Source: Gracilimonas tropica DSM 19535 (lineage in GTDB: Bacteria > Bacteroidota > Rhodothermia > Balneolales > Balneolaceae). From it: a DNA stretch of 64,000 nt. Every line of letters starts with the position of its first letter. The first letter of the stretch is position 1. Shown here piece by piece: positions 46,955-62,965 of the stretch. The position numbers were made by a program, and so were the translations under genes. Below the pieces are notes generated by a model. It was not told the DNA's origin. It made no database searches and was given only the letters and a program-made list of their open reading frames with translations. The DNA is taken from assembly GCF_000375425.1 (NCBI RefSeq), contig NZ_AQXG01000007.1:1-64000 (forward strand), in the 5' to 3' direction.

Positions 46955-48610
46955 TCAGCTTTTACTATTCATGATTTCGCCATCCTGCATGCGGATGATC
47001 TTATCGGCTAATTGTTCGTAGGTGTAATCGTGGGCAATGTTGATGACCACTTTTCCTTTTTCTTTTAGATGAGGAAGTACTTTCGTGTAAAATATTTCTT
47101 TGGAATGCACATCCTGATAGGCCACCCATTCATCAAAGATATACACTTCTTTATCCTCCATCAGCATGTGCACCAACTGGAGTCTTTTCTTTTGCCCTTC
47201 AGACAGATCAATAGTTGTAAAAACACCATTCCGGATACTCACTTTATGATCCATCTCCACCATTTTTAAGTAAAAATCCGCTTTTTGAAGCTGCTCCTTG
47301 CTCAAATGCGACAAATCATCAAACAGATACGAATCGGTTAAAACCACAGCAAACCGATCCCGGTAATCATCAAGATCAGCATCTTCAAGCAATGTATCTC
47401 TGTAGTAGATTTCTCCGGTGTTGGGTCGATACAATCCACATATAAGCTTAATCAGCGTGCTTTTTCCGGAACCATTTCCTCCTTCAATAAATAGCCGGGC
47501 TCCTTTTGTCAGCTTAAGGTTGATATTTTTGAGCCGGAATGAATCCTTGCTGTTTTGATATCTGAAATCCACGTTCCTCAACTCAATAAGCGGCCGGTCA
47601 TGATCTTCCGCCTCCGGTGTGACTTTTATCGCCTCCTGCCCTGTTCCACTTATCGATTTCTGGGTGGTGCTTGTTTTTTCAGAAATTTTATTAAGCTGAA
47701 TACCAAGTTTCTCGATCTGTATCAGCGAAGCCTCTATCCTTTTGATGGTTCCTAAAAAACCGGATACAGTAGATAGCGGGCCCAACATAAATAGTATCAA
47801 TGTTAAATAGGTGTTGAAAAAAGAGACGGTAACGATCTCAAACATATATACCAACAAAATGATAACTCCCAGAAATGCCATCAACACTACATCATTCAAA
47901 CGATTGTTGAATGAGTTAAATACCATTTCCCGAAAATACCACTTCATCTGAATCTCGGAATTCTCTTTCAATTTATGCTCTACATATCGCTCTTTGAACT
48001 TCTTATGGAGCATTAAGTTGGCGATCCCATACACCAACCCTTCGATTAATTTATAGATCACATTTGAGTGCTCACGATTCAATTTCGCATATTTACCTAC
48101 CAATCTGATATTGATAAAATTGACTATATATACGATCCCAAAAGCCCCTAAGGTCAAAGCCCCCATCTTGGGAGAAAGCCAAAACAAGTACACCAAAATA
48201 CCGAGAACGGTGGCGATCCCGGTGGTAACGCTTGGCAGCCGGTTTATGAGGTTTGCAATATGATTCAGGTCATCGGTTAGCACCGGCAGGATATTCGACT
48301 TCATACCTTCCACTCGCTCGAAGGGAGCTGAAAGCACCTTCTTTGAAAGCACTACCCGTAGGCGGTGAATCATCTCCCGGTTGATCTGAGCTATGCTAAC
48401 AGAAGATGCCAACGATGCCACCAAATACGCAGCGATCATCGAAAAGAAATAGATCGCAAATTGCGTGGTATCAAAGGTGTCTGCATTCGTTAATGAAGCA
48501 TGGATCTCTTTTATGATAAGAGTGGAAAAAAGCCCGGTTAACACCGAAGAAAAAATCGTTACGAACAGTAAAAAGTAGGATCCTTTTAGCAAGCGTAGTA
48601 ATGCGCGCAT
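46955..48610 (-). CDS. ABC transporter, SyrD/PvdE-type fused exporter
   Basis: A 551-residue half-transporter with an N-terminal membrane domain (about six helices, 10-300) and a C-terminal ATPase. Walker A is GGNGSGKSTL, the signature is LSEGQKKRLQL, and Walker B reads VYIFDEWVAYQD. The DEW rather than DEP after Walker B is typical of the cyclic-peptide exporter branch (SyrD, PvdE, YojI). No peptide synthetase is nearby, so the cargo may be a lipid- or glycan-linked product of this locus. It is separated by 8 bp from the WbsX-like gene. Confidence 0.87.
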   Translation of the reverse strand: MRALLRLLKGSYFLLFVTIFSSVLTGLFSTLIIKEIHASLTNADTFDTTQFAIYFFSMIAAYLVASLASSVSIAQINREMIHRLRVVLSKKVLSAPFERVEGMKSNILPVLTDDLNHIANLINRLPSVTTGIATVLGILVYLFWLSPKMGALTLGAFGIVYIVNFINIRLVGKYAKLNREHSNVIYKLIEGLVYGIANLMLHKKFKERYVEHKLKENSEIQMKWYFREMVFNSFNNRLNDVVLMAFLGVIILLVYMFEIVTVSFFNTYLTLILFMLGPLSTVSGFLGTIKRIEASLIQIEKLGIQLNKISEKTSTTQKSISGTGQEAIKVTPEAEDHDRPLIELRNVDFRYQNSKDSFRLKNINLKLTKGARLFIEGGNGSGKSTLIKLICGLYRPNTGEIYYRDTLLEDADLDDYRDRFAVVLTDSYLFDDLSHLSKEQLQKADFYLKMVEMDHKVSIRNGVFTTIDLSEGQKKRLQLVHMLMEDKEVYIFDEWVAYQDVHSKEIFYTKVLPHLKEKGKVVINIAHDYTYEQLADKIIRMQDGEIMNSKS

Positions 48611-48786: not shown

Positions 48787-49677
48787 CTATTTCTCAAATG
48801 ATGAAGGTACAGGATACTTTTTCTCTAAAAATTCCTTTACTAATGTAACCACTTTGGGGTTGGGATTATCTCTGAGATCATCATTTAAACAATAGAAATC
48901 GGGGCTGTCTTTTTTCATTTGTTCAAAAAAGGACTGCTGTCTTTTAACATTATTCGTCAACTTATGAAATCTGAAGACTTTATTTAGCTCTGTGATCCAA
49001 ACCGGGTCTGATTCCTTCCGATGGTTTTTGAGCATGTGATAACGGTACAACTTATAGGGACACAAATTACGATCATCACGAAATTTGCTCTGCCGGGTAC
49101 GCTCTGTTTTGTCAGGAAATAATGAATAAGCTTCTTCCCAATACCTTTTATTGATCAAGATCGGCTGGTGTTCAATAATTCCCATTCCAATTAGGTCCCG
49201 ATAACCATCATAAATTCTCCAGCCGAGGTTTTCACCAAAAAGCGTATTAAAAATGCGATACTTATTATCCTTATAAAATGATTTCAGCGTAACAGGCGCA
49301 CCAAACAGAAAATCATCATTCATATACAGAAAATTTTCCCTCAATCCGGGAATATGATGCATAAAACTTTCAATCACATTAGAGTTAAACGTTGGGAGGT
49401 ATTTCTCAGGAATAACCTGATCGTGATGCACCAGCTCTATGCGATCACTGTTTGTATGGAGCCAGTCGGGCACCTGTGGTCTTGCCGTTAAAATGTATAT
49501 CTTGTTAAAAGAGTTGAAGTAGGTTTCCAGCGACCGGAGGCTGTATCGCATCATTTCAAAAGAATCCCGGAAACGCTCGGGGTTGGTATCTTTTTTTATA
49601 TTTGCGTGCTCATTGCGGACTTTTGCATAATCCGGGTCAGCCCCGTTAACCCATGTGTAAACTACATCAAAATTCAT
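48787..49677 (-). CDS. Stealth family sugar-phosphate transferase
   Basis: A 296-residue protein with the Stealth conserved regions in order: CR1 (DVVYTWVNGADP), CR2 (FRDSFEMMRYSLRSLE, IYILTARPQVPDWL, FLYMNDDFLFG), and CR3/CR4 parts (KRYWEEAYSLFP, and near the end CLNDDLRDNPNP). Stealth enzymes move hexose- or hexosamine-1-phosphate onto glycans, producing phosphodiester-linked capsules. Its start codon is only 22 bp from the divergent LicD-like start. This gene suggests that phosphodiester or phosphonate chemistry decorates the surface polymer of the locus. Confidence 0.88.
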   Translation of the reverse strand: MNFDVVYTWVNGADPDYAKVRNEHANIKKDTNPERFRDSFEMMRYSLRSLETYFNSFNKIYILTARPQVPDWLHTNSDRIELVHHDQVIPEKYLPTFNSNVIESFMHHIPGLRENFLYMNDDFLFGAPVTLKSFYKDNKYRIFNTLFGENLGWRIYDGYRDLIGMGIIEHQPILINKRYWEEAYSLFPDKTERTRQSKFRDDRNLCPYKLYRYHMLKNHRKESDPVWITELNKVFRFHKLTNNVKRQQSFFEQMKKDSPDFYCLNDDLRDNPNPKVVTLVKEFLEKKYPVPSSFEK

Positions 49678-49699
49678 TCAGCGATATTAAGGAGGACTT

Positions 49700-50305
49700 T
49701 TGCTAAACCCTGTTAGTTACCAATTCCGGCGAATTTTTGAATATACTCAAAGAATCGTTCATACGAGAATGAATAATGTAGACTTACGCCGCAAGGTGCT
49801 GTGGGAATTATTCCAAAGCTCGAATCATTTTTTAAAATCCCTGGATGTAGATTATTGGGTCAACTTTGGTACGCTGCTCGGTTTTTACAGAGAAAATGAC
49901 ATTATCGGCCATGATATAGACATCGACTTTGGCTGCCATGAAAAATACTATCCAAAAATTCTTGCCAGCAAAAACAAACTGCCTCGTGAACTCACTCTTT
50001 GTGATACCTCCAGTCGCCATAATGGGCCCAAGCTTTATATGAGCTATAAAGGCTTTGATGCTGATATTTATTTTTATAAAGAGGATGGCCAAAAGCTCTA
50101 CAGTTACGAAAAGACAAAATGGGAAAACTACAATGCTCCTATCCCCATGGAAATGGTCTTCCCCACTCAAGATCTTGTGGCCAGGGATATTGAAACCCGC
50201 GCTCCCAACGATATTGAAGCGTACTTAAAAACCATTTACGGTTGCCTGGACAAAGATGCTGTTCGAAACCCTGAGACTGGATATTGGGAACGGGCTGAAT
50301 CTTAA
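49700..50305 (+). CDS. LicD-like phosphotransferase
   Basis: A 201-residue protein with the LicD/FKRP nucleotidyltransferase fold: VDYWVNFGTLLGFYRENDIIGHDIDIDFG (metal-binding GHDIDID) near residues 50-78 and KGFDADIYFYKEDG later. LicD proteins transfer phosphocholine or similar phospho-alcohols from CDP-linked donors to glycans. The annotated TTG start at 49700 follows AAGGAGGA at 49689-49696, an unusually clear Shine-Dalgarno. An ATG at 49769 (MNNVDLRR) is the alternative. With a CDP-AEP pathway nearby, AEP could be the donated group. That is inference. Confidence 0.78.
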   Translation: MLNPVSYQFRRIFEYTQRIVHTRMNNVDLRRKVLWELFQSSNHFLKSLDVDYWVNFGTLLGFYRENDIIGHDIDIDFGCHEKYYPKILASKNKLPRELTLCDTSSRHNGPKLYMSYKGFDADIYFYKEDGQKLYSYEKTKWENYNAPIPMEMVFPTQDLVARDIETRAPNDIEAYLKTIYGCLDKDAVRNPETGYWERAES

Positions 50306-50326
50306 TAGCGCTGTATTTCTGCCGGT

Positions 50327-51049
50327 TTACAAGTTGGGAAGCACCTGGGATAGTGCATACTCCATATGCTTTTCATTGTCGATCTCGCACCAATTCAGAT
50401 TTGGAAAATGAGCCACATCAATCGGTTCCTCATCCAGAGAGTACTGTGCAAGCATGATCTCATAATCTTCACTGTGATCAATATTCACCCGATTACAATA
50501 ATCCGAGAAACGGGAAAGAAATCCTTCTGAAAGTGCCCAAATCCCGGTCATAACTCCTTCCGGTTGACTTTCACTGTCAACTTCTTTTGTAAGATTTATC
50601 AACCTTCCGGCTTTTGAGGAAAAATAAACATTATCGTCAAGGCTCAGTGGAGCTGAAGTCACAATTTTGTTATCGGATCCGGCCTTTTTGCGAAGCTGTT
50701 CATAAATGCCCGGATCATATAAAATATCCGCTTCCAACAGGTAAAAAGCTTCCTTCACCTGTTCCTCAAACATCAAAAAAGTGTAGATACTTGCGCGGGA
50801 ATCATAATGGGGGTTTTCTATCAGTGTGACTTCTTCATATTTCTGCTCAAGATATTCGAAACTCTCCATCAGGTGTCCGCATCCTATTAAAATACGCCCC
50901 ACTCCGGATGCCCTCAATGCAAGAATAGAATATTCAATAATCGGCCGACCCTTAAGTGGCGTTAACGGTTTAGGAAATTCGTCTCCGGTTACACTACGCA
51001 GCCGGGTTCCTTTTCCTGCAGCAAGAATAATAGCTGTTGTTGGTTGCAT
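50327..51049 (-). CDS. LicC-like nucleotidyltransferase, candidate CDP-AEP synthase
   Basis: About 240 residues from the ATG at 51049 (MQPTTAIILAAGKGTRL). An upstream in-frame Met at 51112 lies inside the preceding gene and is rejected. NTP_transferase signature AAGKGTRLRSVTGDEFPKPL, sugar/alcohol pocket region PIIEYSILALRASG, then YLEQKYEEVTLIENPHYDSR, and acidic motif LLEADILYDPG. It resembles LicC, CTP:phosphocholine cytidylyltransferase, and the AEP cytidylyltransferases called PntC. It begins 1 nt after the stop of the GT4 gene (TGATATG), so is coupled to it. With the AEP genes in the same locus, CTP plus AEP giving CDP-AEP is a reasonable role. Confidence 0.75.
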   Translation of the reverse strand: MQPTTAIILAAGKGTRLRSVTGDEFPKPLTPLKGRPIIEYSILALRASGVGRILIGCGHLMESFEYLEQKYEEVTLIENPHYDSRASIYTFLMFEEQVKEAFYLLEADILYDPGIYEQLRKKAGSDNKIVTSAPLSLDDNVYFSSKAGRLINLTKEVDSESQPEGVMTGIWALSEGFLSRFSDYCNRVNIDHSEDYEIMLAQYSLDEEPIDVAHFPNLNWCEIDNEKHMEYALSQVLPNL

Positions 51050-51050
51050 A

Positions 51051-52190
51051 TCAGTTAGCGTAGATCTTCTCAATTTTTTCAGTAAGCAGTTTCCAGTCGT
51101 GTTCACCTGCAATTTTTAAACCTTTTTCGATCAAGGCTTCCATTTCTTCAGGCGATTGTATGTGCTTTTTAAGCAACTCAAACAATGCATCTGTATCTCC
51201 GGGGGGTGGAAAATTATCTACCCCGTATTTTCGGCCAATATTCAAGTAGCCATCATTACCATAGCCTGCTACTTTAACCCCAAGAGCCATCCCTTCCAAC
51301 AAAACGATACCAAAGCTTTCACCATATAATGACGGCGCCACCAGGAGATCGGAATCCAAAAGCATTTGATTTTTTTCATCATCGCTTGTTTGCTCAAAAA
51401 AAGAAATACCTTCCAGCCTGTTTTCTTCAACAAAAGTTTTAGCCTTTGGCAACAATGGGCCGTTACCCAGCATTTTCAATGTCACGTCTTGACCCAAGTC
51501 CCCCTCCTTCAAACGACGATAAACTTCCAGCAGGTCAAAAACGCCTTTTCGGCTTTCAAACCTTCCGATAAAAATTAACCTAAATTCATTCTTTTCTGGT
51601 GGAGTTGGGGATAATCCATCACCGGCATCAGCATCAATGCCATTGGGCAATATTCGAAAATTGCCCGGAGGATTTTGGAAATTGACTCCCATCGCATTGG
51701 CCTGGGTTTTCGAAACAGAAATAATTTCATCCACTTTGGGGAGATAATATTTAGCGGCCAGCCTCATCAAATTCCCCCCAACATATTTTCCAATGCCAAA
51801 ATCGGGAGGGGTATCATGAAAAGTACCAACTTTCTTTACGCCCTTGGGCAACAATCCCAATAATTGGGTTTGCATCAGCGGGTTCCAAATGGTGTGAAAG
51901 TGCACTACATCAGGGTTGAAGTTTTTTATGATATCGAGCGTGCGTTCTTTTTCAGTGGAATTCAAAACAGATATATCCACGGATGTGCCCCAAATACCCA
52001 CTCTTTTTGCTTTCGTCAAATACTTAACTTCGCAATCAAACTTTCTTTCAAGGGATGATTTGGTTAAGCTTGGAGCAAAAACCATCACATTGTGATTTTT
52101 CCGGGTCAGCTCGTTACTTAATTGCGTAACATGAGACTGAACTCCACCTGGAATAGATAAATCGTAAGGGCACACCTGAATGATGTTCAT
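51051..52190 (-). CDS. GT4 glycosyltransferase, PimA-like
   Basis: A 379-residue GT-B enzyme. The start IIQVCPYDLSIPGGVQSHV with glycine-rich loop, and the segments VVHFHTIWNPLMQ and VGTFHDTPPDFG, match the PimA-type lipid mannosyltransferases. Donor-site motifs are IFIGRFESRKGVFDLLEVY and PSLYGESFGIVLLEGMALG (E-x7-E). It probably mannosylates, or adds another sugar to, a lipid. It starts 20 bp from the divergent phospholipase D-like gene and is followed immediately by the LicC-like gene. Confidence 0.87.
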   Translation of the reverse strand: MNIIQVCPYDLSIPGGVQSHVTQLSNELTRKNHNVMVFAPSLTKSSLERKFDCEVKYLTKAKRVGIWGTSVDISVLNSTEKERTLDIIKNFNPDVVHFHTIWNPLMQTQLLGLLPKGVKKVGTFHDTPPDFGIGKYVGGNLMRLAAKYYLPKVDEIISVSKTQANAMGVNFQNPPGNFRILPNGIDADAGDGLSPTPPEKNEFRLIFIGRFESRKGVFDLLEVYRRLKEGDLGQDVTLKMLGNGPLLPKAKTFVEENRLEGISFFEQTSDDEKNQMLLDSDLLVAPSLYGESFGIVLLEGMALGVKVAGYGNDGYLNIGRKYGVDNFPPPGDTDALFELLKKHIQSPEEMEALIEKGLKIAGEHDWKLLTEKIEKIYAN

Positions 52191-52210
52191 ATATAAAGCG
52201 CGTCAACAAT

Positions 52211-53209
52211 ATGTTTGAAAATCACGCTACCACCGATACTTGTGTTTTCTCTGATAGCGATCATTTTTTTGAGCAGTTAACCGCCGACGTTCAAACAGCA
52301 AAACGATCTGTTTGCATACAATGCATGAGTTTTGAAGCCGACCGGGTTGGTACCAAACTTATTGAATTGCTTGGCAGTAAGCCAACCCTTGAACGCACTT
52401 TATTGATCGATCAATATTCTAAATATGTCGTAAACGATACATTTTTAAATGCCCCCCAAGGCTGGATGAATCAAAATAATGCCCGCACCGAGCGCAAAGC
52501 TTTAGACGGACTTATAATAAGAGCAAGAGAAATGGGTATTCGCATTAAGTTCACAAATCCCATGGGTTTTATGATGTACCGGTATCCCGCCCGAAATCAC
52601 AAAAAAATGGTGCTGATAGATGACAGAATATCTTACCTGGGCGGCATGAATTTTACAGAGCACAATTTTCATTGGACCGATATAATGATCCGTCATGAAG
52701 AACCCGATATAGCAAACGCGCTTAAACATTCTTTTGATTCGGACCTTAAGGAAGCAAAAGCTCCGCCTGTAACGCCCATCAATAACCACAGTACGCTTTA
52801 TACTTTAAGTGGACTGAGCACAAAGCATACGTTCCAAAAAATATTGGAGCGCATCAAATTAAGTGATAAAGTTGTCGCTATATCGCCCTATATTTCATAC
52901 CCTATGTTGGATGCAATTGCAGCGGTCAGTGACAATTCCGTAATCGTACCGGCAAACAACAATAAGCCGTTTATTCGTTTTATCCACGGATTACAGCGTT
53001 ATTCAAATGTCAATTTTAAATACATACCGGGTAAAATGCTTCACGCTAAATTGCTCATTCTGGATGACGAAGTAGCCGTATATGGTTCTTCCAATTTTGA
53101 TACCATCAGCTATTTTTTTGAAAAAGAGGTAATTTTAGTGAATAAAGATCCAATTCTTACTACGAAGCTAAAAACTTTTATCTCAAAGTTAATCAACCAA
53201 CAACCATAG
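52211..53209 (+). CDS. Phospholipase D-like phosphatidyltransferase
   Basis: A 332-residue PLD superfamily protein with two HKD motifs: H130-K132 (RNHKKMVLIDD, followed by GGMNF) and H278-K280 (MLHAKLLILDD, followed by GSSNFD). Two motifs without an N-terminal membrane helix suggest a cytoplasmic or loosely bound enzyme of cardiolipin-synthase or transphosphatidylation type. The stop codon abuts the start of the CDP-alcohol phosphatidyltransferase (TAGATG), so the two act in the same pathway, most likely phospholipid or phosphonolipid synthesis or remodelling. Confidence 0.85.
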   Translation: MFENHATTDTCVFSDSDHFFEQLTADVQTAKRSVCIQCMSFEADRVGTKLIELLGSKPTLERTLLIDQYSKYVVNDTFLNAPQGWMNQNNARTERKALDGLIIRAREMGIRIKFTNPMGFMMYRYPARNHKKMVLIDDRISYLGGMNFTEHNFHWTDIMIRHEEPDIANALKHSFDSDLKEAKAPPVTPINNHSTLYTLSGLSTKHTFQKILERIKLSDKVVAISPYISYPMLDAIAAVSDNSVIVPANNNKPFIRFIHGLQRYSNVNFKYIPGKMLHAKLLILDDEVAVYGSSNFDTISYFFEKEVILVNKDPILTTKLKTFISKLINQQP

Positions 53210-54160
53210 ATGTCAGCAGCGGGTTTTTTCAGCGAGTACGAAAAGTCAATAAAGAATAGAATTGTTGAGGAAGGCTATGACCTGGTATTTAGCCGACCCT
53301 GTGGGTACGTTCTTGCCAAGTTTTTTCACACACTAAATTTTACCCCAACCAATATTTCTGTTTTGGGCATGCTGATTGGGGTAACCGGCGGCATCATGCT
53401 TTACTGGCAAGATGTGTTTTTGTACACCGCCACCGGAGCCATTTTGGTTACTTTTGCCGGGCTGATGGACAGTGCCGACGGACAGGCTGCGCGGCTGTAC
53501 AATCAGCATTCGGAAATGGGGCGTTATCTGGACTTTTTTAATGATATGCTCGTTTTCATTAGTTGCTACGCAGCCGGCATGCATTATTTTGCTGATCAAT
53601 ACACCCTGGCCGGAGTTTGGGCTATTGGGTTAGCCTCCGGGTTTGTGCATAGCGTAAAATCTAACATTTATGAATACTACAAAGGCGAATTTCTGCATTT
53701 CTCACTTTCCGATTCCAAACAAAGAAATGAATCGGTAGAATACTTACGCGAAAACTTTGACCGCACCTCCACTGTAACACGGCGCATCACTTATCCCATC
53801 CTCATTGATTATGTAAAAAGACAAAACCAGCTCAAATTCCGAAGTGATGAAGTGACAGACATTTTTGAAGAGGCGAGAGCCAAAGATCCCCAAAAGTTCA
53901 AAGAGATCTACGAGCGTAATTGCCGCAAAATGCTGGCGGCCTGGGCCTGGGTTTGTGGATCTAACGTTATGCGGAACGGCCTTCTGATCTCCAGCCTGTT
54001 CGGAAGAATGGATATTTTTGTGATTGGAAATATCGCTTCTTACGGATTATATCTTTATGTAGGAAAAAGGCAAAACCGTGCTGACAAAAAGATCCTCAAG
54101 GAGATCAAAGATTGGGATCTTAACGCCTTAGAAGATAAGTCTGTACAGACAGTGCTATAA
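53210..54160 (+). CDS. CDP-alcohol phosphatidyltransferase
   Basis: A 316-residue membrane protein with about six helices. The complete CDP-alcohol phosphotransferase motif D-x2-DG-x2-AR-x8-G-x3-D-x3-D is present: D87, D90-G91, A94-R95, G104, D108, D112 (DSADGQAAR, MGRYLDFFND). The N-terminal 40 residues form a soluble extension and the C-terminus is basic. The enzyme should join a CDP-activated alcohol to a lipid acceptor. In this locus CDP-aminoethylphosphonate is a plausible donor, giving a phosphonolipid. The last 41 bp overlap the convergent MMPL gene. Confidence 0.9.
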   Translation: MSAAGFFSEYEKSIKNRIVEEGYDLVFSRPCGYVLAKFFHTLNFTPTNISVLGMLIGVTGGIMLYWQDVFLYTATGAILVTFAGLMDSADGQAARLYNQHSEMGRYLDFFNDMLVFISCYAAGMHYFADQYTLAGVWAIGLASGFVHSVKSNIYEYYKGEFLHFSLSDSKQRNESVEYLRENFDRTSTVTRRITYPILIDYVKRQNQLKFRSDEVTDIFEEARAKDPQKFKEIYERNCRKMLAAWAWVCGSNVMRNGLLISSLFGRMDIFVIGNIASYGLYLYVGKRQNRADKKILKEIKDWDLNALEDKSVQTVL

Positions 54161-56519
54161 GGTAGGTAGCAACCAGCGTGGTGGTGATGCCGGTGATAGC
54201 CAATATCCCTACCGACTCCATTCCGGGATGATCAATAAACAGCAATCCGATAAATCCAAGTATAGTCGTAACCGAGCAAGCGGCAAGTACCGGGAACTTC
54301 ACCGATATAAAGTATTCCAGAAAATTCGACCTTTTGTTGATTAGCGCATCAACAAGGTGAATGCCGTTGTCGGCTCCCACGCCTATAATGATCGGGAAAA
54401 CGATCACATTGTAAAGGTTGATATCAAACATAAAAACCGAGCGGATGGATAGCAGCATGCCAATTGTAAGTAACAAAGGAGCAGCTGCCATGAATGCCTT
54501 CACCAAAGACCGATAGTAAACCAAGAGGATCAAAAAGATGGTGATGAGAGGAACCACAAAAAGAAATGTGGACTCGCGAATCAGCAATTCAAGAATACTG
54601 GAAGCAATGATCGTTGTACTTGCCGCATAAAATGTTTTCCCGGAATCAATACGAATGGTGCCAGAGCTTTTCCTGAATTGTATAGACGTTTGCCCGTTCG
54701 ATAAACTCATAGCAGGGTAAATGACCACCAACGGTGCCATACTCCCATCTTTATAAAAGAACCGGTTCTTAATGTACTTCGGCAACCCGTCTATGCTTGG
54801 AGGAACAGTGTTTTCAGCGATATCAATGAATTCTTTTGCATCATCATTTACATCTTTCAAAAACTCTTCATTGGCATTTAAAAGTTGCTGTATCGAATCT
54901 ACTTTTTGGGCTTTTTTATCCAATTCCTTACGGTCAACCGGATAACGTGCTGAAAAAGATTCCACTCGCTCAATGTCATTATACGGACCGCCAATTCCTT
55001 TCTTAATTTCCGAAAACAGCTCCTTTGATTCCTGAATATTATCGGTAATAAAATAGGACGGCTCGTGATATCCTTCGCTGGTGTTGGTTTCAGAACTCAG
55101 TGAATCATAGGGGGTGGCTCGTGAGGCCGGTTCCAGATCCGAAAAGTTGAAATTAAAACTCATGGACTTGGCTCCAATAAATCCACCGAACAAAATCACT
55201 ATAAAAAACAACGGCAGGGAAACGGTACGAATGGGTTTGGCGATTTCGGACAAAAATGTGGGTGACGGTTCAACCGGTTTCTCGCTTTTCGTGGTGTTTT
55301 TAGCCAGTGACGGGGAAAGCAGCAGAAACAGATAGGTTGAGAACAGATTCACCAAAACATTGATGAAAAAGATGATCCCAAATTGAATAAAGCCTTGAAA
55401 TTCAGCAAAAATAAGGCTCATGATGGCCAAACCGGTAGTCAAACAGCTTAGTAAAATGGGTTTGGTGGAAGAAAAATAAGACAAAACCACTTTTTTGACT
55501 GAAGAAGTATTCGGTGGATGCTGCTTATTAATGGAGTAAAGATGCAATATATAATCGAGATTGATCCCGAACAGAATACTGAAAATGATGCCGGTAAAGA
55601 CATTGATCTCATTAAAAATGAAGGAAGAAAGCCCGATGGATATCACAAAACCAGAGAATAACACAAAAAACATCAGTAACAGGTCTATGATGATATACCG
55701 GGCTTTGTAAGCGGAACTGCGGTTTATGAATATCATGTACGCCACCAGAAAACTAACGAGACTTAAGATCCCGATCACGAGCGCTTTGGTTACAGAAGCT
55801 TGTACATCGTTGATCTTGTTGTAATGATTTACATAGGAACCGCCCCAAAATAGTTCAAGTCCTTCATGTTGTGCTTCTATCTCCGATTTCTTTTGCCTCA
55901 GTAAGCGGTAAGTTTGCTCTACTTTTGAATAATCACTTTTGGGAAAATCAGGCAAAAACAACATGCTGATCACGGTGCTGTCTTCATTTATTTTGTAGCG
56001 CCGGGTGTTTGCAACCTCTTCCAGCAATACTGAAGACTGTCCCCCCAAATCAATTTCTGCGGATTGACTATCCTCCTCATCAAAGTTGACGTACATGGGA
56101 TTTGCTTCCAGCTTTTTCTCCCTGATATACTCATCCACTTCTTTATGCAGCTGATCAAGTTCCGCATTCGTCATCAAAAAAAGTGCCGATTTCCTGATGT
56201 CGTACAGGTCGTTCTCCAGTTCGGCTCCTCTAAAAATATGCTGCCCATTTTGCTTTAATTCCAAAAGTGTATCACGAATGGCGTGAGCCGGTTCTATGAC
56301 CGGCCTGTCATCAACTGAGTGTATCACCAGCGTGAAGCCGCCCTCCGTTGAATTCAGTTCCTCAAGTTTTTCGTAGGTAGCAAGATGATCGTTATCCTCA
56401 GGCAAAAGAGCGATCAGCTCCCCGTTGAATTTCAGGTTTAAGCTCCGGTTCAGCAAATAACCAAATGCCATTAAATACCCAATGATAAGGAGCAGAAATA
56501 TGTATCGGGGCTTTGTCAA
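54120..56519 (-). CDS. MMPL/RND superfamily transporter
   Basis: A 799-residue membrane transporter with two MMPL-type halves: a helix near residue 12, then a periplasmic domain (40-230), five to six helices (about 240-400), a second periplasmic domain (about 450-630) and a final set of helices (about 640-799). GINLDYILHLYSI and GVGADNGIHLVDAL are the paired proton-relay helices of the family (Asp in TM4 and TM10). MMPL proteins carry lipids to the cell envelope. It follows the AEP genes with a 31-bp gap, so a phosphonolipid or lipid-linked glycan is the expected cargo. Confidence 0.88.
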   Translation of the reverse strand: MTKPRYIFLLLIIGYLMAFGYLLNRSLNLKFNGELIALLPEDNDHLATYEKLEELNSTEGGFTLVIHSVDDRPVIEPAHAIRDTLLELKQNGQHIFRGAELENDLYDIRKSALFLMTNAELDQLHKEVDEYIREKKLEANPMYVNFDEEDSQSAEIDLGGQSSVLLEEVANTRRYKINEDSTVISMLFLPDFPKSDYSKVEQTYRLLRQKKSEIEAQHEGLELFWGGSYVNHYNKINDVQASVTKALVIGILSLVSFLVAYMIFINRSSAYKARYIIIDLLLMFFVLFSGFVISIGLSSFIFNEINVFTGIIFSILFGINLDYILHLYSINKQHPPNTSSVKKVVLSYFSSTKPILLSCLTTGLAIMSLIFAEFQGFIQFGIIFFINVLVNLFSTYLFLLLSPSLAKNTTKSEKPVEPSPTFLSEIAKPIRTVSLPLFFIVILFGGFIGAKSMSFNFNFSDLEPASRATPYDSLSSETNTSEGYHEPSYFITDNIQESKELFSEIKKGIGGPYNDIERVESFSARYPVDRKELDKKAQKVDSIQQLLNANEEFLKDVNDDAKEFIDIAENTVPPSIDGLPKYIKNRFFYKDGSMAPLVVIYPAMSLSNGQTSIQFRKSSGTIRIDSGKTFYAASTTIIASSILELLIRESTFLFVVPLITIFLILLVYYRSLVKAFMAAAPLLLTIGMLLSIRSVFMFDINLYNVIVFPIIIGVGADNGIHLVDALINKRSNFLEYFISVKFPVLAACSVTTILGFIGLLFIDHPGMESVGILAITGITTTLVATYLIALSVQTYLLRR

Positions 56520-56550
56520 TGTGTGCTATCTGTAAAAGGTTTGGGGATGC

Positions 56551-57639
56551 TCAGTTTTTGAGATAGGATCTGATCTCGGAGATCACATATTCCAGATCGC
56601 TTTTCTGCAAATCTCCAATTACCGCCATCCGAAACGTATCTGATTCCGGAATTACACCGGGATACACGGTGATATTTCGTTCGTATAAATAGTCATGAAA
56701 GTGATCAAATCCTTTTGGCAAAATGCCCGTTCGTTTTATGGCGATAAGGATCTTTGACTGTTGTTCATCCGGTAAATAGAATTCAAATCCAAGCTCGCTC
56801 ATTCCATCATATAAAACCTGCCAGTTTTGTTTATAGCGTTCCCATCTTTTGCTAACGGTTTCTTCGAGGGTCTCATCAATAGCTTGCTTAAATGCATAGC
56901 AAACCTGCACCGGTGGTGTGAACCGCAACTGCCCTTTTTCCTTTAAATACTTCCATTGTTTATGCAGATCGAAGTAGAAGTTCTTTGAATTCTTTTGGAG
57001 ATGCTGTACTTGGTCCTTGTGAAAAAGCACAAACGATAATCCCGCCATGCCCTGAATACATTTATTGGATGAGGCAGCAAGATATCCAATGTTTAATTCC
57101 TTCAGGTTGATGGGATAGGCTCCAAAGGAACTCATCGCATCTACGATCAGCGTAACATCCTCCTCATTACATACCAAAGAAATTTCTTTCAGCGGATTCA
57201 TCATTCCGGTTGAAGTTTCATGATGAATCATAGCCAGGTGAGTAAACGTACCGCCCACAAGTTTTTCCTTGATACGATCTCTGTCCGGATACTCGCCAAA
57301 CGCATGAATGGTCTCATGCGGAAGACCGTATGATTCACAGATCTGCTTCATCCGAATGCCATAAGCACCATTGGTGACAATGAGGACTTTCTTTGTCTCA
57401 TCCAATGCTGAGGTGAGCATTGCTTCTACCGCGCCGGTTCCACTTGCAGCAAACAAACACGCTTCGTATTCATCCTCAGCGTTGCCAATGACCTTTAGTC
57501 CATTGACTATTTCATGCATCAATGTCCCAAATTCTTCTTCCCGGGGACAAATATCATTAACCACCAGGGCATCCTTCACACTTCTTGACGTTGTTCCAGG
57601 GCCGGGATTCAGTAATATTTTATGCTCCACTTCCTTCAT
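56551..57639 (-). CDS. phnW: 2-Aminoethylphosphonate-type transaminase
   Basis: A 362-residue PLP-dependent class V aminotransferase. The substrate loop ILLNPGPGTTSRSVKDAL at the N-terminus, glycine-rich SGTGAVEAML, D167 (LIVDAMSSFGAYPI) and PLP-Lys K193 (ASSNKCIQG) match AEP transaminases. It interconverts phosphonoacetaldehyde and 2-aminoethylphosphonate, here in the synthetic direction because the preceding two genes make phosphonoacetaldehyde. It starts 2 bp after the decarboxylase stop. Intact and of normal length. Confidence 0.92.
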   Translation of the reverse strand: MKEVEHKILLNPGPGTTSRSVKDALVVNDICPREEEFGTLMHEIVNGLKVIGNAEDEYEACLFAASGTGAVEAMLTSALDETKKVLIVTNGAYGIRMKQICESYGLPHETIHAFGEYPDRDRIKEKLVGGTFTHLAMIHHETSTGMMNPLKEISLVCNEEDVTLIVDAMSSFGAYPINLKELNIGYLAASSNKCIQGMAGLSFVLFHKDQVQHLQKNSKNFYFDLHKQWKYLKEKGQLRFTPPVQVCYAFKQAIDETLEETVSKRWERYKQNWQVLYDGMSELGFEFYLPDEQQSKILIAIKRTGILPKGFDHFHDYLYERNITVYPGVIPESDTFRMAVIGDLQKSDLEYVISEIRSYLKN

Positions 57640-57641
57640 TG

Positions 57642-58763
57642 TTATTCCTCTGATAGAAACTTCATAAAGTTTTGTTTGTTTTCTTGCGGGGAAAGCGTGG
57701 GACGGCCGAGGTCTTTTCGAGCTCCCGTCCTGGTCATAATCTCCAGGAGTACAGGGCCTTCTGTGCTTATAAACTCATCGAGCGTTTTACCTAATGATTC
57801 AGGATCCTCAACACGCATAGTCTTTTTGTACCCACATCCTTCCGCAATTTTTCTGAAATCAATGTTGAAACCGGCTGTTGGCTGTCCTCCTACCGATTCA
57901 TGCGCCCCATTGTTGACCAAAATATGTCTGAAATTTTTAGGCTTTTGATCGCCAATGATCGCCAAAGCGCCCATGTGCATGATCATCGCCCCATCTCCGT
58001 CAATGCAATAGACCGGGCGGCCTTTCTTTTCCATGGCAATTCCCAGGGCAATTTGAGAGGCATGCCCCATACTGCCAACCGTCAGAAAATCACGCTGATG
58101 TCCATGGCCATATTTTTCGCGCAACTCGAAAAGCTCACGGGAGGTCTTGCCGGTTGTAGAAACAATGATATCCTTCTCGCCCAGTTTTTGAATGATTTGC
58201 TCAAGGGCTTCTTCTCTTTTCAAAGAATAGGAGGCAATCTCTTTTCCCTCAAAACTATACTCCTCAAATGTTTTCGGCGGAACGAGCAGCACATAAGGGG
58301 CCGGGTTTGTATTCATTACTTCAAATGCTGTATCTATTTGTTTCTGAGCGAGGGCTTCATCTCCACTTAAAATCGCATAAGGCAACTGCAGCGCCTTCAG
58401 TTGTTCTTCCTGCGTTTTTCCCGGTTTGATATGCTGAGGCTCATCTTGTGCGTCAGGATGTCCTCTCCAGCCCACCATGATCAACACCGGAATGGAGTAC
58501 ACTTCTTCATCCACCAGCGATGTAAGTGGATTCACGATATTTCCAAAACCCGAATTTTGAAGATAGATCATCGGGATTTTACCGCTTGCAAGGTGATAAC
58601 CGGCCGCAATGGCCAATGCGCCACCTTCGTTTGCTGCGATCAGATCGTTGCCTTTATCAAACGCAAAGGAGCCGAAATGCTTGAGCAGGGAATCAGGAAC
58701 TCCCAGCATGAATTCAACGCCCTTACGTTCCAATAATTCATAAAAAAAAGCAGGTTTCAGCAT
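57642..58763 (-). CDS. ppd: Phosphonopyruvate decarboxylase
   Basis: A 373-residue ThDP-dependent enzyme converting phosphonopyruvate to phosphonoacetaldehyde, the irreversible step that drives phosphonate synthesis. Catalytic Glu46 lies in AANEGGALAIAAG. GVPDSLLKHFG opens the chain, and the ThDP/Mg motif GDGAMIMHMGALAIIG ends in NNGAHESVGGQPT. Length and layout match Ppd closely. It lies 5 bp after the PEP mutase stop and 2 bp before the transaminase start. Confidence 0.95.
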   Translation of the reverse strand: MLKPAFFYELLERKGVEFMLGVPDSLLKHFGSFAFDKGNDLIAANEGGALAIAAGYHLASGKIPMIYLQNSGFGNIVNPLTSLVDEEVYSIPVLIMVGWRGHPDAQDEPQHIKPGKTQEEQLKALQLPYAILSGDEALAQKQIDTAFEVMNTNPAPYVLLVPPKTFEEYSFEGKEIASYSLKREEALEQIIQKLGEKDIIVSTTGKTSRELFELREKYGHGHQRDFLTVGSMGHASQIALGIAMEKKGRPVYCIDGDGAMIMHMGALAIIGDQKPKNFRHILVNNGAHESVGGQPTAGFNIDFRKIAEGCGYKKTMRVEDPESLGKTLDEFISTEGPVLLEIMTRTGARKDLGRPTLSPQENKQNFMKFLSEE

Positions 58764-58768
58764 TTCGA

Positions 58769-60061
58769 TCAGTTTGGAAGTATTTCCAGGATATCTTTGA
58801 TGGACATGCAGTATTCGTCTGCTTCCAGCGAGCGCTTGTTGGTGAGAATAGACTCAGCGGTTCTTTTCATCGCCGGAAATGCACTTCTCAACAAATGGTT
58901 GGCATAGATCACCACATTGAAGCCGGCATCTATCAGCTCTTGTTCCGTAAACTGGTTATATGATGACGGAACAGAGACAACCGGGACTTTGTAATCAAAG
59001 TTTTGATATTCTTTCATGAATTCAAGGATCTCTTCCCCGTCTTTTTTCCGGCTGTGGATCATAATGCCATCAGTTCCGGCTTCTATATAAGCCTTGGCGC
59101 GTTTCAAAGCCTCTTCCATCCCCACGTTGGCGATCAGGCTCTCAATTCTTGAGATGATCATAAAATCGGAGGTCACCTGGGCTTTCTTGGCACGGGAGAT
59201 CTTTTCACAAAAAACGGCCACATCTTCCAGTTGCTGCTTTACTTCTGTTCCAAACAGGGAATTTCTCTTCAGGCCTGATTTGTCCTCAATAATTACGGCA
59301 GAAACTCCCAGCCTTTCCATATTTCGAACCAAAAGCTCAAAGTGCTCAACCGGCCCTCCGGTATCACCATCCAGGATAATAGGTTTCGTGGTTACATCCA
59401 GAATGTCGTTTATAGTCTGAATTCTGGACGTTCTGTCTACGTATTCGGTATCCGGCTTTCCTTTGGCTGTAGAATCTGTGAGGCTGCTTACCCAGATCGC
59501 ATCAAATTCTCTGAGCTCTCCTTCGGCCTCAACTTTGGTTTCTTCCACAATCAGGCTTGAGATACCGTTGTGCGCTTCCATTACCCGAACAATTGGTTTT
59601 GCGGAAATCAAACGGCGTAACATTTTTCTGCGGATGTCAGGCGTAGTCCCAATTTCCCGCAAAGCTTTCCGCAAGCCTGATGAAGATATGCCCTCGGTAT
59701 AATCCGGTTCAACAAGCTCGCCTCCCCATTCATCCAGAATCCGAATCACTTTCTGGCGAATATGTTTTTGAGGGCCCACTCTCCAATCGGTTCCATGTAC
59801 CACGTAATCGGGTTTAATTTTTCTGAGGTTCTCTTCATAGTCCAGCGTTTTTTGAAGGACCACCTCACTGACTCCCTTAATATTCTCTAAAATACGTTTG
59901 CGTTCTTCATACTCCAGAAATGGGATTCGGCTGAATTTTGTAACTGCTTCATCAGATAGTAAGCCTACGGTGACCTCACCTAACTCCCTTGCTTTTTCAA
60001 TGATATTGATATGCCCATGATGAATGAGATCCGTTCCCATTCCGACGTAAACTTTCTTCAT
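58769..60061 (-). CDS. pepM: PEP mutase fused to N-terminal nucleotidyltransferase
   Basis: A 430-residue bifunctional protein. Residues 1-135 are a cytidylyltransferase-like Rossmann domain: GMGTDLIHHGHINIIEKA (HxGH, H14 to H17) and ISSSGLRKALRE (near 126). Residues 145-430 are PEP mutase of the isocitrate-lyase superfamily. The DGDTGG motif (231-236) and EDKSGLKRNS (259-268, with the N267 typical of mutases rather than lyases) are visible, plus WVSSLTDSTAKG near 190. It converts phosphoenolpyruvate to phosphonopyruvate. The fused domain suggests CDP activation of the product. It is the first gene of the AEP operon. Confidence 0.94.
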   Translation of the reverse strand: MKKVYVGMGTDLIHHGHINIIEKARELGEVTVGLLSDEAVTKFSRIPFLEYEERKRILENIKGVSEVVLQKTLDYEENLRKIKPDYVVHGTDWRVGPQKHIRQKVIRILDEWGGELVEPDYTEGISSSGLRKALREIGTTPDIRRKMLRRLISAKPIVRVMEAHNGISSLIVEETKVEAEGELREFDAIWVSSLTDSTAKGKPDTEYVDRTSRIQTINDILDVTTKPIILDGDTGGPVEHFELLVRNMERLGVSAVIIEDKSGLKRNSLFGTEVKQQLEDVAVFCEKISRAKKAQVTSDFMIISRIESLIANVGMEEALKRAKAYIEAGTDGIMIHSRKKDGEEILEFMKEYQNFDYKVPVVSVPSSYNQFTEQELIDAGFNVVIYANHLLRSAFPAMKRTAESILTNKRSLEADEYCMSIKDILEILPN

Positions 60062-60316: not shown

Positions 60317-62965
60317 TTATAGCTCAGAAACGACATCCCGAATTTGGTTAGCATTGTATGCTCCCTCTATCGCATTGTGATTAAAAACCATGAAGTAGTG
60401 ATAATTTTCACCAGATAACTCAGCCCACTTCTTACCTAACTTATTTTTGGCGATGCTATCCGAATTATCACGATCATCTCCTTTGGTCTCAATGATTACC
60501 ACATTTCCTTTTTCTGTATAAATCAAGAAATCAGGATAGTGATTGCTTTTAAAACCATTGATGGCAAAACCTTTACCTCTTTCAAGATTTCTATGCCAAA
60601 ATTTTACGTTATCAAGATTGTGGATTTTTAGCAGGATCTCTTCCTCAAACTTATTAATTGAAGCTTCCCTTTCATAAAGGGATCTGCTTATACTGGGGGC
60701 TAAATTTCCCGGAGTGAGCTGTTCTTTCAGCTTAAAGTTTGGATGTGCTTTAATCTTTTTCGTATCCACCTTCTTTTGAAATTCTTTCTCAGCGTGTTCA
60801 TCTGCTAAAGCTCGAATCTTTCGTTTAATTATATCTTTGTATGTGTATTTATTCTGTATGCAATGGATCAGCTGTTCACTGTTCATATCACTCAAAATCC
60901 TTTGCACATACACTTTAATGTCCTCCTCAGGGATAGGATATATGCTGCCAATAAGCTCAATTAATGTGTGAGCAACACTCTTTACCTGATTTTCTTTTGG
61001 CTGAGACCGGATGTATTCCACCAATGGTTCTCGCACTCGATCATTTTCAATCCTTGCAAAAGATGGAGTAGATTGGTTGTTGCCCGTTTCTTCCAGATCC
61101 ACTTTATAAAGCTCCGATTCTAACTCAGAAAAATTGATTTCTGCATTTTGGTTACTGAGCCGAAAATCCCCTAACAAATAATTCTGATCCAATGGCACCA
61201 ATTCAGATTCGGTTCCAAACAATTCATTACCGGCCCCTTTGATCTCAATAAAAAACTGGGGAAGCTCAAGACTCAGGGCTTCTTCCTTAAAGTGGTCTTT
61301 CATTCTATACATAGTCACCTTCGCATGTTTGAGGTCGTTGTATTTTTCCGCTTCCGAATCCCCTGTATCCTGAATTTTGCGCTCAAATTCTTCGCTTTCT
61401 TTCACGGCTGTTTCCTCAATATCTGAAACAATCTCGTCTTCAATCTCTGTGTCTTCAGCGTTCTCCGAACTGAACCGGATTCTATTCGTTTCTATCGGTT
61501 CGTCTTCTTCTGCTACTGGTTTTTGTTCAGACTCACCTAAAACCAATTGCTCCAGTGGATCAGATGATTTTTCCTGTGATTCTTCCTTCCGATCTTTCTG
61601 CCGATAGTCTCGTTTACTAAAGCCAGATTCTTGTAAAGCATCAACGATATTATCGAGTGTTTCTGCAAATTGGTTGGAAGCCGTTAGGACATAAGAAAGA
61701 TTCAGTAGCGGAGAGTTATGTTTAATCACACCAGGCTGCCGTAGAACCCTTCCTAATATCTGCTCCACATCTACAGCAGATGAACGGTTGGCTAATGAAG
61801 CTAAGATATAAGCAAACGGACAATCCCAGCCTTCTTTCAGTGCGTTAATGGTAATGATATACCTAATCGGACAGTCCTTTGACATCAAGTCTATGCCATC
61901 AAGATCGTTGATATTTGCTGTTTTAATAGCAATCTGTTCCTCGGGAATCTGAAGCTCTAAAAGCTGTTCTTTGATTTTGGTGAAGGTCGTAGAATCATCG
62001 TCCCGGTCTGCCTGGGCCTGAAAGAGCACAATTGGCCGAATGTATTTTCCGCCATCTTCATGTTCTTTTTTGGCTAACCGCTCTAATTTACTCTGCAGAT
62101 GAAGGGCACTGTTTACCACTTCTGTTTTATCATGATGGTTATACACAATCACCGGCAACTTAACCATGTGCTCTCTTTTAAGCGCCATAGCCGAAGCCGT
62201 AGAGATGATATTGCTGTTACTTTTTGGAGTTGCTGTGAGATCCAGAATGAAACTTGGCCGCAGATCCTTAAGCATTTCTACACTTAAATCGGTTTCCGCA
62301 TTATGGCTTTCATCCAAAACAACCACGGGATTTAGCTTTCTGATCACATTAATAAGAGCGGTCTCATCGGTGTCTTCCAACACATGATCGGTTGTTTCAA
62401 AAGAATCTGCAAAGCTTGCAAGCTGACCGTTTTCCTCGAATACTTTTCGGTCTTCTTTCCTTCTGGCCCGCAGACTGGCAAAACTCATCACAAAAATACT
62501 GAGTTGCTCTTCAACTACTGTAGGGTTGAAATTAGCTCCCTGTAAAAGATCCTCTTTTTTATATACGCCAACCCGATGATTGAATAGTGAATTTAATTTC
62601 TGCCGATACGGATGATCCGGGTCCGAAAGTGCTTCATAGGCTTGATCTAATAAATTCCTCCAGGGTACCAGCCAAACTACCGCTTTGGGTTTGTTGACAT
62701 CAAAAGCATTGAAAATAGTGCGCAGGGCATTTACGGCAATGAAGGTTTTACCACCGGCTGTGGGGACTTTGACACAGGCATGAACCGCGCCGGGTACATT
62801 GTTTTTATAGGGACGCATCCCATCACCGGTAACAGGATTGTAAGCTCCAATCTTATCTTCCCAAAACCGGTTGAACGCTTTAGCATAGTCATGATCTTCC
62901 TGAACGTATTCTAAGTACAATTCCAGGTCATCCAGCACATCTTGTTGGTAGGGTTTAAGCTCCAT
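60317..62965 (-). CDS. Type III restriction-like helicase/nuclease (Res)
   Basis: An 882-residue protein. N-terminal SF2 helicase: KVPTAGGKTFIAVNAL (Walker A near 72), VVVLDESHNAE (motif II, DESH), LDLTATPKSNS (motif III), then INALKEGWDCPFAYILAS and VEQILGRVLRQPG (motifs V and VI). An acidic linker (about 465-560) leads to a C-terminal PD-(D/E)xK nuclease: YPDFLIYTEKGNVVIIETKGD near 810-830. This is the layout of type III Res subunits. Its ATG overlaps the RhuM stop by one base (TAATG). No modification methylase is in the window. It may lie further right. Confidence 0.85.
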   Translation of the reverse strand: MELKPYQQDVLDDLELYLEYVQEDHDYAKAFNRFWEDKIGAYNPVTGDGMRPYKNNVPGAVHACVKVPTAGGKTFIAVNALRTIFNAFDVNKPKAVVWLVPWRNLLDQAYEALSDPDHPYRQKLNSLFNHRVGVYKKEDLLQGANFNPTVVEEQLSIFVMSFASLRARRKEDRKVFEENGQLASFADSFETTDHVLEDTDETALINVIRKLNPVVVLDESHNAETDLSVEMLKDLRPSFILDLTATPKSNSNIISTASAMALKREHMVKLPVIVYNHHDKTEVVNSALHLQSKLERLAKKEHEDGGKYIRPIVLFQAQADRDDDSTTFTKIKEQLLELQIPEEQIAIKTANINDLDGIDLMSKDCPIRYIITINALKEGWDCPFAYILASLANRSSAVDVEQILGRVLRQPGVIKHNSPLLNLSYVLTASNQFAETLDNIVDALQESGFSKRDYRQKDRKEESQEKSSDPLEQLVLGESEQKPVAEEDEPIETNRIRFSSENAEDTEIEDEIVSDIEETAVKESEEFERKIQDTGDSEAEKYNDLKHAKVTMYRMKDHFKEEALSLELPQFFIEIKGAGNELFGTESELVPLDQNYLLGDFRLSNQNAEINFSELESELYKVDLEETGNNQSTPSFARIENDRVREPLVEYIRSQPKENQVKSVAHTLIELIGSIYPIPEEDIKVYVQRILSDMNSEQLIHCIQNKYTYKDIIKRKIRALADEHAEKEFQKKVDTKKIKAHPNFKLKEQLTPGNLAPSISRSLYEREASINKFEEEILLKIHNLDNVKFWHRNLERGKGFAINGFKSNHYPDFLIYTEKGNVVIIETKGDDRDNSDSIAKNKLGKKWAELSGENYHYFMVFNHNAIEGAYNANQIRDVVSEL

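Follow-up and report, generated by a model that had tools for sequence, protein, structure and literature searches.

The window analysed here, a 64,000-nt stretch of Gracilimonas tropica DSM 19535 (Balneolaceae; NZ_AQXG01000007.1; genome label G000), carries at 48787-60061 a block of ten genes, all intact, in which genes for 2-aminoethylphosphonate (AEP) stand together with genes of lipid- and glycan-modifying families. We posit, with somewhat more confidence than doubt, that this block is a phosphonyl-tailoring system acting on a lipid, and that its lipid genes form a chassis whose head-group cassette can be exchanged. An earlier annotation of the same DNA (hereafter the original prediction) had listed eleven genes; we count ten. 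The cytidine diphosphate (CDP)-alcohol transferase with its full motif and the PLD, GT4, MMPL, LicD and Stealth genes that it named all lie intact in the block and pass their Pfam cut-offs except for one Stealth region, CR3. The ten genes are as follows.

58769-60061, minus strand: phosphoenolpyruvate (PEP) mutase (Ppm) with an N-terminal PF01467 cytidylyltransferase domain (TIGR02320, PF13714, PF01467, motifs)
57642-58763, minus strand: phosphonopyruvate decarboxylase (Ppd; TIGR03297)
56551-57639, minus strand: AEP transaminase (AEPT) of the PhnW/AepZ type (TIGR03301)
54120-56519, minus strand: dedicated HpnN-like RND (MMPL) transporter, a candidate lipid exporter (PF03176)
53210-54160, plus strand: CDP-alcohol phosphotransferase (CDP-OHP), the proposed transferase of AEP from cytidine monophosphate (CMP)-AEP to lipid (PF01066, full motif, tree)
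52211-53209, plus strand: phospholipase D (PLD)-superfamily protein with two HKD motifs, cardiolipin-synthase-like (PF13091, PF00614)
51051-52190, minus strand: PimA-like family 4 glycosyltransferase (GT4; PF00534, PF13439)
50327-51049, minus strand (open reading frame listed to 51112, upstream TTG): PntC-like AEP cytidylyltransferase (6pd1 match, residues, tree)
49700-50305, plus strand: LicD-family phosphotransferase that may be a second AEP transferase, acting on glycan or glycolipid (PF04991)
48787-49677, minus strand: Stealth-family protein of the sugar-1-phosphate transferase type (PF11380, PF17101, PF17103)

Ppm, Ppd, AEPT and MMPL form a minus-strand run with spacings of 5, 2 and 31 bases. 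The PLD and CDP-OHP genes abut on the plus strand, the 3′ end of the latter overlapping the MMPL gene by 41 bases, and this pair is followed by GT4 (minus), the nucleotidyltransferase (minus), LicD (plus) and Stealth (minus).

Co-occurrence of the AEP and lipid genes in related genomes, put forward as a check in the original prediction, was borne out in a sample of 93 Balneolaceae genomes. All ten genes occur in the same order and on the same strands in G000, G187, G262, G302 and G065, and in G143 with LicD missing, so that the block recurs in 6/93 genomes and LicD in five of those six. PntC orthologues (at least 414 bits) are found in exactly these six genomes, the next match scoring 101 bits, and some PntC match at 1e-10 occurs in 35 of the 93. 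CDP-OHP has an orthologue in 8/93 and Ppm in 11/93. The dedicated MMPL is present in seven (the window copy and six others at 61-74% identity), and 88 genomes give an MMPL match of some kind, for the most part a paralogue at roughly 30% identity. Chance clustering of the block genes was dropped as an explanation given the shared order and strands in six genomes and the confinement of PntC orthologues to them; calculated chance probabilities, which take no account of shared ancestry, are left out of the evidence. Among 296 genomes of the phylum Ppm exceeded its cut-off in seven, six of them in Balneolaceae and one, G035, outside, where a cluster encodes Ppm, Ppd, a PntC-like enzyme, AEPT, a capsule-synthesis protein and LicD. 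Synonymous changes are near or past saturation between most pairs of genomes, and hence no argument is made from dN/dS.

The complete minus-strand AEP pathway of the original prediction, PEP mutase fusion included, was confirmed by curated models. Ppm scores 406.8 bits against TIGR02320 (cut-off 319.55), with 192.3 bits to PF13714 and 56.3 to PF01467, and it carries the true PEP mutase signature EDKxxxxxNS as EDKSGLKRNS at residue 259. Ppd scores 470.1 bits against TIGR03297 (cut-off 312.5) and AEPT 369.4 bits against TIGR03301 (cut-off 360.8). Assignment of the three enzymes to AEP synthesis from PEP is thereby supported at the sequence level. A catabolic role for the transaminase was considered and dropped, as Ppm and Ppd belong to the same gene run. 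The solved structures matching Ppm are 5x3d over residues 4-137 (E 8.9e-51) and 1m1b over residues 146-426. The former is a 160-residue entry titled 'phosphoenolpyruvate phosphomutase', which we take to be the Fom1 cytidylyltransferase domain.

The nucleotidyltransferase, which passes the Pfam NTP transferase gathering score, had been labelled LicC-like. Its closest solved structure is instead Treponema denticola PntC (6pd1; E 1.1e-25 over query residues 27-260); pneumococcal LicC matches less well (E 1.1e-15). Its start is most likely the ATG at 51049, one base past the GT4 stop, rather than the TTG at 51112. In the PntC study, changing R15, K25 or K153 to alanine lowers activity, and E104 and E196, which are Asp in LicC, lie near the AEP amine (PMC6697681). 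All five residues are retained in the six block enzymes and G035, and E104, K153 and E196 are common to these seven and Treponema PntC. Among nine inositol-side enzymes E104 and E196 occur in none and K153 in three, and in two further LicC-like relatives, those of G397 and G404, position 104 is Asp and position 196 is Glu. In the NTP-transferase tree the block enzymes group with Treponema PntC and G035 (support 92/94). Family, residues and tree thus agree in supporting a PntC-like enzyme that would make CMP-AEP from AEP and cytidine triphosphate (CTP).

The CDP-OHP protein scores 41.5 bits to PF01066, above the gathering score, and has the full motif DGx2ARx8Gx3Dx3D at residue 90 (DGQAARLYNQHSEMGRYLDFFND). 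Its probable donor was approached through its relatives, 13 of which were opened in their genomic setting: 10 of the 61 non-block genomes among 67 matched (from the top of the list), two of seven plasmid matches, and G450. A nucleotidyltransferase was present at 11 of the 13 loci, seven of these 11 with an inositol synthase; others pair it with a HisC-like pyridoxal phosphate (PLP) enzyme (G397, G404) or with a glycerol-3-phosphate-cytidylyltransferase-like protein (G399). CDP-diacylglycerol-using transferases need no cytidylyltransferase partner. Because the relatives mostly sit with cytidylyltransferases, the donor of CDP-OHP would be an activated head group and not CDP-diacylglycerol. A CDP-diacylglycerol role is also less needed, since G000 holds three other PF01066 genes that already cover it, PssA adjoining Psd and two PgsA-like proteins. 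In the block the donor is probably CMP-AEP.

In G397 (L134:6064-8703) and G404 (L136:5877-8532) the CDP-OHP relative has a HisC/CobD-like PLP enzyme on one side and a LicC-like cytidylyltransferase on the other, which may amount to a head-group cassette of the CDP-ethanolamine type. Another possible cassette occurs in G399 (L135:5840-8828), where the relative accompanies the glycerol-3-phosphate-cytidylyltransferase-like protein, an SDR protein and a GlsA/OlsF-like acyltransferase. A Bacteroides finegoldii gene matched CDP-OHP by tblastn (30.5% identity over 72%, E 5e-21) and has an NDP-sugar synthase as its neighbour. A scan of genome contigs for two CDP-OHP peptide patterns returned three loci in metagenome-assembled genomes of Balneolaceae/Rhodothermia, apparently G065, G349 and G143 again.

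A pointer to an exchangeable head group comes from a sister family. A profile search with CDP-OHP across 395 phylum genomes returned six block or remnant genomes, then G431, of another family in the same order, at 272 bits, followed by a drop to 130 bits. The G431 locus comprises Wzi, ABC, GT25, GT4 (minus), PLD (plus), CDP-OHP (plus), an NTP transferase (plus), an inositol-1-phosphate synthase (minus; PF01658 103.9 bits) and MMPL (plus). G450 (82% complete), found among 129 genomes of the order, has GT4, PLD, CDP-OHP, NTP transferase and synthase, the first three in the same relative layout as in the window. No LicD or Stealth match was found in the stretches read from either genome. Identity to the window proteins is 33-38% for GT4 and 31-35% for PLD, and the GT4 match stands well above those of the two other own GT4-like proteins that were compared (E 5e-11 and worse). 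In the CDP-OHP tree the block and G431/G450 enzymes form one clade (100/99) with other Bacteroidota relatives outside it. The G431/G450 NTP transferases group with G000's own inositol-type cytidylyltransferase (IPCT; 94/93), and a tree forcing them together with the block enzymes is worse by 58.8 log-likelihood units and is rejected (p-AU 0.0004). With the CDP-OHP enzymes in one clade and the NTP transferases apart, the transferase is therefore shared by descent, and the activating enzyme and head-group genes differ together. This fits a GT4-PLD-CDP-OHP trio serving as chassis, with an AEP cassette in the block genomes and an inositol cassette in G431 and G450; these data do not root the change of cassette, which may have run in either direction.

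It is possible, and we offer it only tentatively, that this extends to a modular lipid chassis of the Bacteroidota (PimA-like GT4, PLD, CDP-OHP and RND exporter) in which an exchangeable biosynthesis and cytidylyltransferase cassette sets the head group. Such a chassis would yield a glycosylated AEP lipid with a dedicated RND pump in the block genomes and an inositol lipid in the sister lineage, and the cassettes of distant relatives may serve ethanolamine- or glycerol-like groups.

Under the proposed mechanism Ppm, Ppd and AEPT would convert PEP to AEP, and the PntC-like enzyme would form CMP-AEP from AEP and CTP. CDP-OHP would then move AEP from CMP-AEP onto a membrane-lipid hydroxyl, as in the Kennedy pathway, giving a C-P head group that should resist removal by ordinary phospholipases D. 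Since GT4 and PLD are also retained alongside an inositol head group, they may act on the lipid anchor, preparing or extending it, whichever head group is used. Action of GT4 on the anchor before AEP attachment is favoured, since AEP has no hydroxyl for an O-glycoside. LicD, where encoded, may place AEP on a glycan, Stealth may add a sugar-phosphate, and the RND protein would extract the product from the inner membrane toward the outer membrane. The original prediction had the locus make CDP-AEP, transfer AEP to a lipid and/or glycan and export the product; synthesis, activation and co-inheritance stand as sequence-level results, and lipid attachment and RND export are steps that we infer.

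The PLD protein (PF13091 70.8 bits, PF00614 55.2) has HxKx4D motifs at residues 130 and 278, the final Asp of the second being Asn in the G065 copy. The MMPL protein exceeds the PF03176 cut-off (37.7 bits against 20.5). It scores 115.1 bits to the HpnN model TIGR03480, far below the equivalog cut-off of 751.85, and its nearest solved structure is HpnN 6wu0 (E 2.2e-9). In the MMPL tree it is separate from HpnN, in a clade of its own on a long branch, and G431 MMPL likewise sits on a long branch with unsure placement. LicD scores 38.7 bits to PF04991 (cut-off 22.6), with a weak match to cholinephosphotransferase Mf1 (35.5 against a cut-off of 225), and its DxD-type motif reads HDIDID in four of five aligned rows and HDLDID in the fifth. 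Stealth regions CR1, CR2 and CR4 are over cut-off (PF11380 111.9, PF17101 40.6 and PF17103 39.5 bits) and CR3 is just under it (PF17102, 22.7 bits against 24.2). The best serine-palmitoyltransferase match in G000 reaches 502.9 bits against a cut-off of 640, by which a ceramide acceptor is neither shown nor excluded.

One genome, G089, retains a remnant of the block (L051): its PLD, CDP-OHP and MMPL genes are intact, AEPT is truncated at the start, and a piece of GT4 is succeeded by a piece of Wzi. Ppm, Ppd, PntC, LicD and Stealth were not found in the 36 kb searched, and orthologues of Ppm and PntC are absent genome-wide. Relative to the window, pN of the AEPT remnant is 0.17, compared with 0.13-0.14 for intact copies, and the loss looks recent because the remnant is barely less conserved than these. 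The block has lost both its ends here, and in the vicinity are a type I restriction set and a phage-type integrase.

A number of observations weigh against an AEP-specific lipid system. The intact PLD, CDP-OHP and MMPL genes of G089 could reflect an AEP-independent use, and in G349 (86% complete), which has no Ppm, PLD and CDP-OHP lie where a contig ends, a secreted lectin-like gene replacing GT4 upstream. In G450 the gene past the synthase encodes a sensor protein and not MMPL. No nucleotidyltransferase was found at two of the 13 CDP-OHP relative loci (L132 and L133, both distant relatives). The NTP-tree groupings with Treponema PntC (92/94) and with IPCT (94/93) fall below the starred support level, and the block enzymes alone are supported at 76/97. 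The predicted structure of CDP-OHP is poor (mean pLDDT 59.1, from 4 sequences); with this model Foldseek gave no PDB match at E <= 0.001, and VIA places PIP synthase, AF2299 and CPT1/CEPT1 close together, the donor classes not being separated. The PF01467 domain fused to Ppm (residues 1-140) keeps its catalytic motifs, HxGH (HHGH) and ISSSGLR, intact although a separate PntC is encoded, which gives the block two activating enzymes. LicD, an alternative AEP transferase, is present in five of the six blocks. Lastly, each of the six block genomes has, away from the block and next to the general MMPL, an inositol synthase together with an inositol-type cytidylyltransferase, so that CDP-OHP could still use CDP-inositol.

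The last two points are the basis of the alternative that survives best, which we nevertheless regard as unlikely: an AEP-decorated inositol glycolipid, in which CDP-OHP would make an inositol lipid with CDP-inositol from the second locus, GT4 would glycosylate it, LicD would add AEP to the glycan and the RND protein would export the product. The solved structure nearest to GT4 favours it: a three-sequence profile matched PimA (4n9w and 2gej, E 5e-27 and 5.8e-27; next match E 1.3e-12), whose acceptor is phosphatidylinositol. So do the inositol cassette of the sister version and the G035 cluster, which has PntC with LicD and no CDP-OHP match in the 15 kb read. G143 has its block without LicD, which speaks against this alternative, and holds a LicD relative elsewhere, which counts against the AEP-specific reading. 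That relative (42% identical to the window LicD) lies beside a fused NTP transferase-aminotransferase (L154:8847-11236), away from the AEP block. Against it too, PntC shares a block with CDP-OHP in 6/6 genomes.

The second locus itself also counts against this alternative. In G000 it lies on contig C2 (L088:8767-18644), with the sole PF01658 match of the genome. Its inositol synthase and inositol-type cytidylyltransferase lie close to a PF04464 transferase, a general HpnN-like MMPL, a flippase and a sulfotransferase. In nine other opened genomes, too, the synthase and cytidylyltransferase are clustered with an MMPL and a PF04464-type gene. The PF04464-type transferase lies within 4 kb of IPCT and MIPS (the inositol synthase) in 10/10 opened loci holding the pair and in 0/2 opened MMPL loci without it. 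These counts cover L088 and 11 of 12 stretches (the twelfth, L154, is not an MMPL locus); the domain was scanned in G000, and the genes at other loci are homologues of that protein. The contig C2 locus looks like a separate inositol-phosphate surface system, its PF04464 transferase being a likely alternative consumer of CDP-inositol in G000. The same locus is present in G303, G305 and G061, from which the window-type CDP-OHP is absent.

Surface-polysaccharide genes flank the block in the window, where 16 genes in 43388-63999 were scanned for domains:

46955-48610, minus strand: ABC exporter, outside the core (PF00005, PF00664)
44353-46946, minus strand: WbsX glycosyltransferase and Wzi-type outer-membrane protein, outside the core (PF14307 265.5 bits, PF14052 42.6 bits)

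Relatives of the ABC exporter adjoin the block in G187, G262 and G302, all of the same genus, g1 (41.5-46.4% identity), and the inositol locus of G431 (28.5%); Wzi relatives adjoin it in G143, G187, G262 and G302 and also occur at the G431 locus. Directly upstream of the block, at 60317-63999, are a type III restriction-like helicase and a RhuM-family gene.

These flanks raise the alternative of AEP tailoring confined to a capsule or O-antigen, a phosphonoglycan on which LicD and Stealth would act with the lipid genes as unrelated neighbours. Wzi, WbsX, the ABC exporter and GT2 adjoin the block, Stealth and LicD belong to families of glycan enzymes, and Bacteroides fragilis has a known AEP capsule, as the Pnt study notes (PMC6697681). 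We nevertheless judge this improbable. The glycan flanks vary (genus g1 has ABC, glycosyltransferase and Wzi genes, G143 has two Wzi genes, and G065 has a GT92 gene with a met-zincin), whereas in 6/6 genomes the AEP genes are accompanied by MMPL, CDP-OHP, PLD and GT4. Moreover, the five other genomes of the family in which Ppm occurs (G069, G307, G329, G346 and, at two loci, G311; Ppm about 60-65% identical) have no orthologue of CDP-OHP or of the dedicated MMPL genome-wide, and the G069 locus (L036) is set among Wzz, flippase and O-antigen ligase genes. The G069 locus was read at length and the others over 2-4 kb. In G069, G307 and both G311 loci, Ppd is followed by an iron alcohol dehydrogenase; G329 gave no match to it, and in G346 the locus stops at the contig edge. 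These dehydrogenase-bearing loci look like hydroxyethylphosphonate loci; among the Ppm-Ppd-iron alcohol dehydrogenase loci (L036, L056, L058 and L061), the surroundings in G069 suggest hydroxyethylphosphonate glycans. A secreted polymer built with phosphonate repeats, teichoic-acid-like or otherwise, or else a small-molecule phosphonate, would accommodate the two cytidylyltransferase domains and three phospho-transfer families of the block but is very improbable, there being no PF04464-type polymerase among its ten genes, and the 16 genes scanned including neither an oxygenase nor a tailoring enzyme of the peptide type.

If the lipid-tailoring reading is right, it would suggest that Balneolaceae make phosphonate lipids and devote a pump to them. 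For the attachment of phosphonates to bacterial lipids the block names a small candidate set. The inositol sister offers a natural swap experiment, one transferase clade with two head-group cassettes; the block thus predicts the enzyme responsible for transfer and supplies specificity pairs open to test.

Compared with described systems, the block shares Ppm, Ppd, AEPT, the PntC-like enzyme and LicD with the Pnt pathway, as well as a Ppm-PF01467 fusion with a separate PF12804 enzyme nearby. The words 'phosphatidyltransferase', 'stealth', 'mmpl' and 'phospholipase d' do not occur in the main text of that paper (PMC6697681). There, formation of CMP-AEP by PntC is shown in vitro and the subsequent steps are called unknown (Rice et al. 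2019, PMC6697681), so that treating CDP-AEP as an established intermediate of phosphonolipids, as in the original prediction, goes further than that paper does. Clusters of pepM, ppd, AEPT, NTP transferase and CDP-alcohol phosphatidyltransferase in Nostoc and Burkholderia have already been termed phosphonolipid clusters, and the block has these five gene types in common with them, including the CDP-alcohol phosphatidyltransferase beside the AEP genes. They differ in having a 2-oxoglutarate/Fe(II) oxidase (hydroxy-AEP) and hpnL where the block has MMPL, PLD, GT4, LicD and Stealth (PMC5987646). No oxidase family was found among the 16 scanned genes, and hpnL was not seen there, no hpnL-specific model having been used. 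The core is thus in print (PMC5987646). In the literature consulted, mostly outside subscription papers and largely as titles and opening lines of abstracts, we found no description of AEP genes combined with MMPL, PLD, GT4 and Stealth, nor of an AEP/inositol counterpart, nor any name for the G431/G450 version.

A CDP-OHP relative beside an NTP transferase is likewise shared with the alternative inositol lipid cluster, for whose Bacteroides/Prevotella relatives a Kennedy-like reaction of CDP-inositol with diacylglycerol has been proposed without proof (Heaver et al. 2022, PMC9246714). That cluster differs in its inositol head group and in having MIPS and a HAD hydrolase (PMC9246714), both absent from the 16 scanned genes. 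PLD, MMPL and GT4 are not listed in the two opened plasmid regions with CDP-OHP relatives, where gene tables are incomplete. By analogy, the window reaction would be the AEP form of such CDP-head-group transfer. Kennedy-type CDP-choline/ethanolamine phosphotransferases share the CDP-alcohol motif, the CMP-head-group donor and diacylglycerol acceptor being suggested for the block enzyme by context only. With HpnN/HAE3 RND lipid transporters the block protein shares MMPL domains, differing in its position below the HpnN equivalog cut-off and in its separate clade. The G431/G450 version has GT4, PLD and CDP-OHP on the same relative strands and, in G431, ABC, Wzi and MMPL alongside; it has MIPS and an inositol-type cytidylyltransferase where the block has Ppm, Ppd, AEPT and PntC. 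Published work already covers the chemistry of PntC as well as phosphonolipid clusters with CDP-OHP, and what is new here is the chassis shared with an inositol version.

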